In this document: piece after piece, positions 23,256-30,805 of the stretch | Numbering within the stretch: position 1 is the stretch's first letter | Layout: each line of letters opens with the position of its first letter | Assembly (NCBI GenBank): GCA_012031225.1 | Contig: JAAUTZ010000036.1 | Span: 1-34,506 of the forward strand | Reading direction: 5' to 3' | DNA: 34,506 nt | Source: Chloroflexaceae bacterium | GTDB taxonomy: Bacteria > Chloroflexota > Chloroflexia > Chloroflexales > Chloroflexaceae | Made by a program: the position numbers and the translations under genes | Notes under the pieces: generated by a model | The model's database searches: none | What the model saw: only the letters and a program-made list of their open reading frames with translations | Told to the model about the DNA's origin: nothing

Positions 23256-23346
23256 ATCCCATATCTTACTAGACACTTCCTTATGAGTTGGCAGAATACG
23301 GCTTCCTGTTGTAGGCATTCTGCTCGCCCCAATGAAAGGTCAGCCG

Positions 23347-23913
23347 ATGATACGAGTATCTGTTGACAGCATTCGTGTAAGCCTGCTTACCCAACATCGT
23401 GTTGTGGTGCTGCGTGAGGCGGATAGCCGCCACTATATCCCGATTTGGATTGGGCCCTTTGAGGCTGATGCTATCGCTATGGCAATTCAGGGGCACGAAC
23501 CACAGCGGCCACTCACGCACGATCTGCTCAAGGCAACAATCCTCGATCTTGGCGGCAGCGTCAATCATATCCTCATCAGTGATATTCAGGATAACACCTT
23601 CTTCGCCCGCATCGTCGTTGAGCAGAACGGGCGCACTATCGAGATTGACTCGCGCCCCAGTGATGCGATTGCGCTTGCGGTGCGGGTGGATGTACCGATC
23701 TTTGTTGAAAACCACGTCCTCGAACAAGCTGGCGTAGTTTTCGATGAAGATGAACAGCCTTCGCTTGAATTGCCTACGGATGATCTGGCCCCGGCCAGCG
23801 AAACTACCCCCAGCGATGCCCCGATTGAAGAGAGTGACATGTCGCTGTTCCGTGACTTTATCAATACGCTCGATCTCGATACTGATAAAAGCGATCCCGA
23901 GCGCAATCAGTAA
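23347..23913 (+). CDS. Bifunctional nuclease (BFN/DUF151) family protein
   Basis: 188 residues from ATG 23347, with GAAAGG 7 nt upstream; the ATG at 23332 overlaps that site. The BFN domain fills residues 1-135: [27 protein letters not shown], then [15 protein letters not shown] and [14 protein letters not shown]. The C-terminal part (from [10 protein letters not shown]) is acidic and probably disordered. Plant and bacterial relatives have been reported to have both RNase and DNase activity, but many bacterial members are uncharacterised. The gene is alone, divergent from the kinase gene, and is the last gene before the origin-like region. Confidence 0.9.
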
Positions 23914-23918
23914 TACCA

Positions 23919-23949
23919 TACGCGGGGAGGGGGCTAGCCCCCCCGCGTA
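23919..23949 (+). terminator. Strong GC hairpin after the BFN gene
   Basis: TACGCGGGG on the left pairs with CCCCGCGTA on the right around a G/C-rich core centred on GCTAGC. It begins 6 nt after the stop. No T-run follows. It probably ends the BFN transcript and shields the non-coding region beyond it. Confidence 0.55.
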
Positions 23950-24029
23950 CCACGCCAACGCACACAAGCCTATGTCCCCGCTTGGCATGCTTCCTGCTTA
24001 GCGGCTTTTGCCAACCTTATGCAAAAAGA

Positions 24030-24365
24030 ACATTATGTTATCCCCAATTGTGGATAACCTTGCATTCTGTGTGGATAACTTATCCACGCTGTGAACAACG
24101 TGCAGTCCCCCCGCCCTGATCCCGGCAGTTTTCCCCATTTGGCGTGCATAGTCTGTCGAGAATGTGCGTATTGATCTGTACAAAATATGGCGATCACCAT
24201 GCCCCCACGCACTTGTCCGGATCTCATCCCCGCCTATCCACAGCCGATCCCGATCAGCTCAAGCGCATCCCGATGCGCTCCAAGCGACCCAATCCACACA
24301 ATCCACAGCCCTACTGTTGCGACTGATTTCTTCTTTATTTTATAAACATGAATCGAATAGTAAGC
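24030..24365. other. Candidate replication origin: cluster of DnaA-box-like 9-mers and an AT-rich tract
   Basis: No gene lies between 23914 and 24426. DnaA-box matches (consensus TTATCCACA): TTATCCCCA 24038-24046; TGTGGATAA (perfect, minus) 24049-24057; TGTGGATAA (perfect, minus) 24070-24078; TTATCCACG 24080-24088; CTATCCACA 24234-24242; and two tandem CAATCCACA at 24290-24298 and 24299-24307. The second and third pairs form the palindrome GTGGATAA-C-TTATCCAC. A hairpin AGCGCATC-CC-GATGCGCT lies at 24262-24279. Next to the last boxes is an AT-rich tract, about 24325-24362, in an otherwise GC-rich region, which could be the unwinding element. Box clusters next to AT-rich DNA are the hallmark of bacterial oriC. 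dnaA itself is not in the window. A non-replicative DnaA-titrating cluster is the alternative. Confidence 0.65.
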
Positions 24366-24426
24366 GGCTTTGGGGAAAATGGGTGTAACGCGGCGCACGC
24401 ATGAGCGTATATCTCATGAACATGGA

Positions 24427-25218
24427 TTACGTCGGCTTGTGCGCCATGATAATCCCGAATGTGCCACGCAAGGATTGTACCCGACCCTCCGCCACCTCAA
24501 TCTGAAAGAAATCATGGTAGCGTGGCTCTGCCGCGAGCAACCACTGCTCTAGCTGATCGCGCTCGCTATCCGGCATGCGGATGCGGGCTGTCCATGCAGC
24601 AAAAGGGTATGACTCCCATTGATACGGCTCGGTGTGGGTCAGCTTCAAGCCTGCCGTAATGCAGAAGTGCTGCCATTCGGCGAAGCTATAGGCACGCACA
24701 TGGCTTGGATCGCGCCAACGTTCAAACCGATCCATAAACGCATCGAGGTCGGGGTCATCCAAGCCGATATGGTCTGAGACGAGCAATGCCCCACCCGGCT
24801 TCAGCACCCGCGCACTCTCCTGCACGAATGCCTGAATATCGGCGAAGTGGTGGGCCGCAACCCGACACGTCACGAGGGCGAAGCTCGCCGCCGCAAACGG
24901 CAGGGCTTCGGCGGGGCAACGGCAGTAGCTCAGCTGTGGGTAGCCCTGCGCGGTGATGTGTTCGCGGGCGGCGTGCAACATGGCTAGCGTCAGGTCGCTA
25001 GCGACAACGTGCTGGGCCACACCCGCCAATGCTAGGGCCATATGCCCGCCACCAGTAGCCACATCAAGCACCCGCTCTGGGCCGAGCAGGGCGGCTAGCT
25101 CCAGCATCCGCTGGCGATCTGGGCCGTGCGCGTGGGTGGGGCTGTGGACGTATGCCTGCGCGACAGGGGCAAACTGGCTCTGGGCGAGGTGCTGGATCTG
25201 GGTGGGATCAGAGGTCAT
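24427..25218 (-). CDS. Class I SAM-dependent methyltransferase (UbiE-like)
   Basis: 263 residues from ATG 25218, preceded by AAAGGA; the ATG at 25266 is inside a hairpin and unlikely. Motif I is RVLDVATGGGHMALAL (SAM binding). VVASDLTLAMLHAA gives the acidic motif that holds the ribose, CPAEALPFAAASFALVTCRVAAHHF is the UbiE/COQ5-type motif, and LKPGGALLVSDH is motif III. The acceptor is unknown; quinone or lipid substrates are typical of relatives. The C-terminal 90 residues have no recognised domain. It follows the VanW gene on the same strand with a hairpin between them. Confidence 0.88.
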   Translation of the reverse strand: MTSDPTQIQHLAQSQFAPVAQAYVHSPTHAHGPDRQRMLELAALLGPERVLDVATGGGHMALALAGVAQHVVASDLTLAMLHAAREHITAQGYPQLSYCRCPAEALPFAAASFALVTCRVAAHHFADIQAFVQESARVLKPGGALLVSDHIGLDDPDLDAFMDRFERWRDPSHVRAYSFAEWQHFCITAGLKLTHTEPYQWESYPFAAWTARIRMPDSERDQLEQWLLAAEPRYHDFFQIEVAEGRVQSLRGTFGIIMAHKPT

Positions 25219-25252
25219 CGGTGCAGATTCCTTTCTTGGGTTACGACAGCAC

Positions 25253-25281
25253 GATGCCCCGCTCACGGTGAGCGAGGCATC
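25253..25281 (-). terminator. Hairpin between the VanW gene and the methyltransferase gene
   Basis: GATGCCCCGCTC and GAGCGAGGCATC pair with one mismatch (12 of the arms shown, 5-nt loop). It lies about 30 nt past the VanW stop. No T-run follows, so it may be a weak terminator or a processing site. Confidence 0.45.
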
Positions 25282-29299: not shown

Positions 29300-30066
29300 A
29301 TGACGCGGATTATCGCATTGGCAAACCAAAAAGGCGGCGTAGGCAAAACCACCACCACCCTCAATCTGGGGGCTGCCCTAGCAGAACGCGGGCGGCGCGT
29401 GTTGTTGGTGGATATTGACCCGCAGAGCAACCTCACCACCTGTCTCGGCGTGAATCCCGATGCACAGGAGTATACGATCTACGAAGTGCTCCTCAATCCG
29501 CAGCAGGGGGCGGGCTTTGCAGTGCAGCAGGTGCGCGAGAACCTGTATCTGATCCCCTCGACATTGGGGCTGGCTGCTGCCGAACTGGAACTGTCGGGCC
29601 AGATCGGGCGCGAGAAGCTCCTCTACAAAGCTCTCCGCCCAATCCGCGATGCGTATGATTACATCTTGATTGACCCGCCGCCGAGCTTGGGTCTCTTTAC
29701 CCTGAATGCGTTCTCAGCAGCCACAGAGGTACTCGTGCCGTTGCAGGTGCAAATCCTCTCGCTCAAGGCGGTGGGGCAGCTGTATCAGACAATCCAGCGC
29801 GTGCGCGAGGATATTAACCCTGTGCTGGATATTGGCGGGGTGCTGTGTACGATGGTGGATCGGCGCACCTCGTCTCGGAATTGATCGAGACCAAAGCCCG
29901 CAAGACGTTCGGCACCCGCGTGTATCAGACGACCATCCCGCACAATGCCCAACTCGTCAAGGCGACAGCAACGGGCAAAACAATCCTTGAATATGATCGT
30001 TCCTGCTCTGGGGCGGTAGCCTACATTGCCTTAGCCAAAGAGGTGGATTGTGTCCAAGCGTCGTGA
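29300..30066 (+). pseudogene. parA: ParA/Soj-type partition ATPase, one frameshift
   Basis: The start at ATG 29300 has AAAGGA about 10 nt upstream. The first frame carries the deviant Walker A KGGVGKTTTTLN (the Lys pair of ParA/MinD ATPases), VLLVDIDPQSNLT, and YILIDPPPSLGLFTLNAF (Walker B region). It then runs to GVLCTMVDRRT before a stop at 29884. The next frame continues at 29872 exactly where the family does: VSELIETKARKTFGTRVYQTTIPHN, then LEYDRSCSGAVAYIALAKEV. The break lies at 29870-29871; one (or four) bases seem missing. No slippery heptamer is present, so programmed frameshifting is unlikely. A full protein of about 255 residues would be a normal Soj-type ATPase that drives chromosome or plasmid partition. 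The ParB-like gene overlaps its end by 17 nt. Confidence 0.85.
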
Positions 30067-30805
30067 TTTTGCCGATCAGATTGATGCGATTGAGCTACCA
30101 CCGGCCCCCGTCATTCAGCGCGGGCAGGGCTTGGAGGGACTCATCACGCCGCAGGTTGCAGCTATCGAGGTGGGCACCGAGACCGAATTGAGCTTCGATG
30201 AGCAGGACGAACTGCGCCGCTGTGAGTTGATTATCGAGCGCGGTTTGAAGACCTTCTTCGAGGTGGGGGCGGCTCTCGCGCGGGTGCGTGAGCTGCGCCT
30301 GTATCGCACCACCCACGCCACCTTTGAAGCCTATTGCCAAGACCGCTGGGATTTCTCGAAGACGTATGCCAACAACCTGATCGCTGCGACCAGTGTGCGC
30401 GAGAATTTGACAACAATTGTTGTCAAACACCTGCCTGCCAACGAAGCCCAAGCCCGCCCCTTGACGCGCCTGCACGATCCTGAGCAGCAGCGCGAGGTGT
30501 GGCAACAAGCCCTCGCCACCGCCCCCGAAGGGCGCATCACGGCGGCGCACGTCGAGGCAGTGGTGCGGGCGTTTCTGGAGGGCATCGCCGCGACACCACC
30601 TGCGCCAAGTACGCCGGCAGCACCAGTGCGGACGCTCCGCCACTACCTGCACGAGGCCCACCGCCTGATCGGGGCGTATGCGCCGCAGCTCGCCCAACTG
30701 CGCGACACAGCCCAGCAGACGAACGACCCCTCCGCGCTAGCTGTGCTTGATCTGATTGAGCGGCTGACGCACCTGCTCGCAGAGGCCGAACAGCGCGGGG
30801 GGTAG
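30050..30805 (+). CDS. ParB-like helical DNA-binding protein, parA partner, lacking the ParB N-terminal domain
   Basis: 251 residues from GTG 30050; GAGG lies about 7 nt upstream, inside the end of parA, so translation is coupled. The N-terminus is basic then acidic. The centre (about 58-120) is helical with an HTH look: CELIIERGLKTFFEVGAALARVREL, then FEAYCQDRWDFSKTYANNLI. Residues 123-180 (TIVVKHLPANEAQARPLTRL, EGRITAAHVEAVVRAF) resemble the helical region after the HTH in ParB/KorB proteins. The CTPase/nuclease-like ParB N-domain with its GERRxRA box is missing. A site-specific DNA-binding adaptor for ParA is inferred; other ParA partners of this kind occur on plasmids and phages. The C-terminal 60 residues could mediate dimerisation. 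Confidence 0.75.
   Translation: MSKRRDFADQIDAIELPPAPVIQRGQGLEGLITPQVAAIEVGTETELSFDEQDELRRCELIIERGLKTFFEVGAALARVRELRLYRTTHATFEAYCQDRWDFSKTYANNLIAATSVRENLTTIVVKHLPANEAQARPLTRLHDPEQQREVWQQALATAPEGRITAAHVEAVVRAFLEGIAATPPAPSTPAAPVRTLRHYLHEAHRLIGAYAPQLAQLRDTAQQTNDPSALAVLDLIERLTHLLAEAEQRGG

Follow-up and report, generated by a model that had tools for sequence, protein, structure and literature searches.

A probable chromosomal replication origin of Chloroflexales located beside a BFN nuclease gene and apart from dnaA

The closest described counterpart of the locus reported here is the basal unwinding system (BUS) of Bacillus subtilis, in which DnaA-boxes 6/7 act together with DnaA-trios (PMC8287927) and which belongs to an oriC that flanks dnaA. 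Origins unlinked from dnaA are known from E. coli (PMC8287927) and from cyanobacteria such as Synechococcus elongatus, where oriC lies near dnaN (PMC7198777). For the order Chloroflexales, the literature searched offers only the genome paper of C. aurantiacus, whose map has oriC in the twelve o'clock position and in which dnaA is Caur_0001 (PMC3150298). The literature searched yielded no prior statement of an origin positioned beside a BFN gene, while a DoriC entry may exist.

We analysed a stretch of 34.5 kb (hereafter the window), a single contig from the draft genome of a Chloroflexales bacterium (205 contigs, 4.2 Mb). An initial annotation of this DNA had proposed a chromosomal origin without dnaA beside it in about 510 bp free of genes. 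The gene-free gap measures 513 bp, and dnaA is indeed found on a separate contig, the 32.5-kb C84 (at 24.4 kb). With a probability of roughly 0.93, the bacterium starts chromosome replication in this region, an oriC unlinked from dnaA. The proposal of an origin away from dnaA is supported by the order-wide conservation of the locus and by the position of the GC skew and of parB/parS in relatives, all of which, like the anatomy of the region, are observed directly; for the window genome itself the assignment is a prediction from homology and motifs. The features of the locus are as follows.

23332 to 23913, plus strand: BFN-domain (bifunctional nuclease, PF02577) gene, Pfam 5e-43; conserved left neighbour of the proposed origin
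23914 to 24426, no strand: proposed oriC intergenic region, 513 bp, flanked by the BFN and methyltransferase genes
24038 to 24046, plus strand: DnaA box TTATCCCCA, one mismatch; retained in the sister species
24049 to 24057, minus strand: DnaA box 1 of the three-box array, perfect TTATCCACA
24070 to 24078, minus strand: DnaA box 2 of the array, perfect; 21 bp after box 1
24080 to 24088, plus strand: TTATCCACG, one mismatch; between array boxes 2 and 3
24090 to 24098, minus strand: DnaA box 3 of the array, decayed TTGTTCACA; 20 bp after box 2
24234 to 24242, plus strand: DnaA box CTATCCACA (at most one mismatch), right-hand group; Chloroploca-type relatives have an equivalent 57 bp before the tandem pair
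24290 to 24307, plus strand: tandem weak DnaA boxes, CAATCCACA twice (starts 24290 and 24299), two mismatches each; spacing 9 bp, adjoining the unwinding element
24311 to 24319, plus strand: CTA-CTG-TTG, three DnaA-trios (bottom-strand reading) after the spacer GCC; definition from PMC8287927
24320 to 24364, no strand: AT-rich tract, 73% AT over 45 bp, probable DNA unwinding element by composition
24427 to 25266, minus strand: methyltransferase gene, right border of the gene-free gap
29300 to 29884: solo ParA, 194 aa, about 50% identical to the chromosomal ParA of Chloroflexus-type relatives
30050 to 30805: open reading frame after ParA, with no ParB domain above the Pfam cut-off and a sub-threshold HTH_ParB match (E 0.09)

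Comparison of this layout with the described systems reveals both likeness and difference. As in the B. subtilis BUS, two tandem boxes are followed by a 3 bp spacer, the trios CTA-CTG-TTG and an AT-rich tract; unlike in B. subtilis, there is no dnaA nearby, and a three-box array with 21 and 20 bp spacing stands about 190-240 bp from the unwinding module. The separation of oriC from dnaA and the skew shift at the box cluster are shared with the unlinked origins of E. coli and cyanobacteria, which differ in that the neighbour here is the BFN nuclease gene (in relatives also parAB-parS and/or SRP RNA) and the unwinding module is of the Bacillus type. Arrays from other Chloroflexota families (L119 in genome G350 and L144 in genome G168) consist of the same three-box direct repeat with 20-22 bp spacing, but those arrays are directly beside dnaA while that of Chloroflexales is beside BFN. 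The locus is a known architecture in an unlinked position, and dnaA-unlinked origins are already a known kind. The box layout had originally been proposed as a new arrangement, should the region be oriC; that proposal does not hold for an ancestral three-box array joined to a standard module of DnaA boxes, DnaA-trios and AT-rich DNA, with the same array found beside dnaA in other Chloroflexota.

An oriC was recognised here by an intergenic DnaA-box cluster beyond chance, an AT-rich unwinding element beside the boxes, a cumulative GC-skew minimum at the site and a position conserved among relatives. The whole window holds nine matches with at most one mismatch to TTATCCACA, five of which fall between 24038 and 24242. 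This intergenic clustering exceeds chance: when the window was shuffled 300 times with its dinucleotides preserved, no 270-bp span contained more than 3 boxes (at most one mismatch) vs 5 observed, and 0/300 shuffles reached five. The cluster first noted within 270 bp was confirmed as five such boxes plus the tandem two-mismatch CAATCCACA pair. Its supposed four-box core is better read as a degenerate three-box array (24049/24070/24090) with two extra boxes around it, and the palindrome GTGGATAA-C-TTATCCAC described with it is present at 24071-24087 but absent from the pattern common to relatives. Array box 3 reads TTGTCCACA in the sister species and TTATCCACA in most relatives; the TTATCCACG box has no counterpart at the same place in the listed relatives. 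Within the 4.2 Mb draft assembly, TGTGGATAA-N12-TGTGGATAA at 24049-24078 is the sole tandem pair of the form TGTGGANAA-N5-30-TGTGGANAA.

The right-hand end of the region carries the putative unwinding module. The tandem boxes, CTA-CTG-TTG and the AT-rich tract match, at the level of sequence, the basal unwinding system of DnaA boxes, DnaA-trios and DNA unwinding element. The published BUS search pattern, a DnaA box with at most 2 mismatches and three or more NAN trios no more than 16 bp beyond it (PMC8287927), is present in the window as CAATCCACA CAATCCACA-GCC-CTA-CTG-TTG. The AT-rich tract noted earlier is real, with an AT fraction of 0.60-0.75 across 24300-24379, and its 45 bp of 73% AT place an AT-rich unwinding element beside the boxes. 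Across the order, the sequence to the right of the array presents tandem weaker boxes, mostly a 3-4 nt spacer, CTACT(A/G) and an AT-rich tract often ending in ACATG, with only two clear trios in many Chloroflexales relatives. A combined score for the tandem boxes and CTACT exceeded the 99% level of shuffled regions in 32/35 loci (9/35 on the reverse strand); since this score was shaped on the same sequences, the shuffles guard against chance and not against fitting.

These elements suggest a mechanism of initiation. DnaA would bind the array boxes 21 and 20 bp apart, a distance of about two helical turns, and the array would probably nucleate or store DnaA. DnaA would also bind the tandem weak boxes at 24290/24299, from which, following the BUS literature, a DnaA-ATP filament is predicted to run onto the DnaA-trios and melt the AT-rich tract at 24320-24364, and the helicase would be loaded at the opened tract.

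Conservation was evaluated with the BFN gene as anchor for the syntenic place in relatives and with a strict definition of the array (three boxes on one strand, spaced 21 and 20 bp without tolerance, and no more than 4 mismatches over all three). The array was detected downstream of BFN in 38/42 loci in or near Chloroflexales vs 0/38 BFN loci of other Chloroflexota, so defined that the first set comprises the window, L205-L243, L255 and L271 and the second comes from Caldilineae, Anaerolineae, Thermomicrobia and other Chloroflexota. The records of two of the loci, L255 and L271, say no more than 'bacterium', and it was the presence of the array that placed both with the order; without them the strict count is 36/40, and counting both as outsiders gives 2/40 outside. 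Named genomes with the same locus include Chloroflexus islandicus, Candidatus Chloroploca, Candidatus Viridilinea, Oscillochloris, Kouleothrix and Roseiflexus MAGs. The position is conserved among relatives: members of the order retain the cluster at one syntenic place, and the boxes upstream of dnaA are fewer. Of 400 scanned genomes of the phylum, 33 have a perfect three-box array (20-22 and 19-21 bp spacing), and the reversed control gave 0. The array directly adjoins the dnaA gene in the two other families mentioned above, and the simplest reading of these sequences is that it is old, would once have stood beside dnaA and became unlinked in Chloroflexales. Three further loci from other Chloroflexota families (L116, L117 and L120) have the same array near a gene pair that resembles a nucleotidyltransferase and a nucleoside kinase (names read from the translations only), with neither dnaA nor BFN beside it; these arrays may be further relocated origins.

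Three closed relatives allowed the position of the array to be compared with the strand composition of the chromosome. Two of them, G029 (5,258,541 bp, one contig) and G033 (4,890,986 bp), belong to the window's family and the third, G042 (5,801,598 bp), to another family of the order. In each of the three, dnaA sits at 0.8 kb; the BFN gene is found at 1.967 Mb in G029, 1.888 Mb in G033 and 0.136 Mb in G042, which separates the array from dnaA by 135 kb to about 2 Mb. Local minima of cumulative GC skew, taken from densely read stretches of 400-420 kb and not from complete chromosomes, lie at 1,967,135 in G029 (array boxes 1,967,011-1,967,060), 135,824 in G042 (boxes 135,641-135,690) and 1,895,959 in G033 (boxes 1,889,154-1,889,203), within about 150 bp of the array in the first two and 6.8 kb from it in the last. 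In G029 and G033, skew sampled genome-wide in 20-kb stretches is mostly negative before the BFN locus and mostly positive after it, and dnaA marks no such change. Splitting the circle at the array gave skew contrasts of 0.045, 0.030 and 0.027 for G029, G033 and G042 (permutation p 0.0004, 0.0064 and 0.0076); splitting it at dnaA gave -0.030, -0.018 and +0.015. The coarse genome-wide fit is broad, with slightly better positions within about 0.2-0.7 Mb in G042 and G033. The skew minimum thus falls at or near the locus in the dense stretches, and the genome-wide sample contradicts dnaA in two of the genomes and prefers the locus over dnaA in the third. Of 21 loci from drafts or named genomes that had 4 kb or more on either side, 17 showed a rise in skew from the left to the right flank of the array (means of -0.020 left and +0.017 right). 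The window has its own skew minimum at 18.1 kb and not at the cluster, skew within this 34.5 kb being uninformative. A published dif site for Chloroflexus was also sought to place the terminus; the main text of the source names only Dehalococcoides.

A second conserved tandem DnaA-box pair occurs about 6.6-6.9 kb from the main array (G029:C1:1960162-1960190 and G033:C1:1895753-1895781).

In the closed relatives the partition locus lies near the array as well. The only perfect parS (TGTTTCACGTGAAACA) of G029 is at 1,969,325 and the only perfect one of G033 at 1,886,744, each 2.3-2.4 kb from the array, and G042 has a one-mismatch site at 136,634, 0.9 kb from the array, with three perfect sites at 36-75 kb. 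The strongest ParB gene of each genome stands 1.8-3.3 kb from the array (G042 137,524; G029 1,970,199; G033 1,885,616). Both parS and parB are near the array in all three relatives. The window genome as assembled lacks parS and contains no strong chromosomal ParB (best E 7e-13 vs about 1e-33 in relatives); the 34.5-kb window has no parS at up to 3 mismatches, and 20 kb of the sister locus L205 hold none either. What had been described as a parA/ParB-like module 5 kb from the cluster turned out to be a solo ParA, though closed relatives do carry chromosomal parAB-parS at the place of the proposed origin. The window parA and the next reading frame were considered as a chromosomal parAB and rejected, given that the frame has no above-cut-off ParB domain and that chromosomal ParB matches nothing in the window. 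Either ParB-parS was lost in the window lineage or contigs are missing; the window genus may have lost or rebuilt its partition system.

The region upstream of dnaA, which carries 2-4 boxes, was considered as a better origin and rejected on the skew and the position of the partition locus. Regularly spaced boxes, often about 101 bp apart, are kept there in L001 and L035-L049 and possibly serve autoregulation or are a remnant of the ancestral origin. Such conserved boxes upstream of dnaA speak for a rival reading in which initiation occurs there and the cluster serves to titrate or reactivate DnaA, like datA/DARS or the DnaA-box clusters of Bacillus, and the second tandem pair of the Chloroflexus-type genomes, 6.6-6.9 kb from the main array, illustrates that extra box pairs exist. 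We nevertheless consider this explanation very improbable. A datA/DARS site lies away from the origin and has no unwinding element, whereas the skew minimum, parS and parB of the closed relatives are at or near the cluster and not at dnaA, and neither trios beside an AT-rich tract nor a reset of strand composition is expected of a titration site. Slightly less probable again is a bipartite or dual origin, in which the cluster and the dnaA-upstream boxes cooperate through DnaA looping or can each fire. The order-wide persistence of regularly spaced boxes upstream of dnaA and moderate unwinding-module scores in some of these regions speak for it, but in closed genomes a distance of 135 kb to about 2 Mb lies between the two sites, and in G029 and G033 only one of them shows a sign change of the skew. 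Known bipartite origins span only about one gene, which also counts against it. A chance or promoter-related box cluster without a replication role, or the origin of a contig-borne plasmid, deserves hardly any credence: the genome is a draft and the contig only 34.5 kb long, yet no shuffle reproduced the cluster, it is conserved order-wide at one chromosomal place, it shares its contig with uvrB, and the syntenic place of closed relatives is in their main chromosome.

Taken as oriC, the 0.5-kb gap is almost certainly where chromosome copying starts across the whole order of filamentous (mostly photosynthetic) Chloroflexota. The three closed genomes examined in the order are numbered from dnaA, and analyses of copy number, growth rate (peak-to-trough) or gene strand that use the dnaA point would err by up to 2 Mb. 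In evolutionary terms the locus is a clear example of oriC separating from dnaA, other Chloroflexota families having this array next to dnaA. It also provides a fragment ready to be used in DnaA assays and in the construction of plasmids that replicate in Chloroflexus-type phototrophs. Tentatively, and at clearly less than even odds, we suggest that oriC and dnaA parted a single time, early in the history of Chloroflexales (probably including Herpetosiphonaceae), with the three-box array of the phylum and the ancestral unwinding module kept beside BFN/parAB while dnaA kept a box set of its own, and that the pair could form a long-range circuit of initiation and autoregulation. If so, DnaA expression and origin dosage would be set at distant parts of the chromosome.

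The Herpetosiphon-like genome G053 likewise has a box pair beside BFN (5.566 Mb) and parS sites (5.533-5.536 Mb) at a great distance from dnaA (0.5 kb), but its ParB gene is located at 6.13 Mb. In several relatives a small SRP RNA gene (RF00169) stands directly past the AT tract (L212:11042-11138, L225:10876-10972 and L229:11007-11103).
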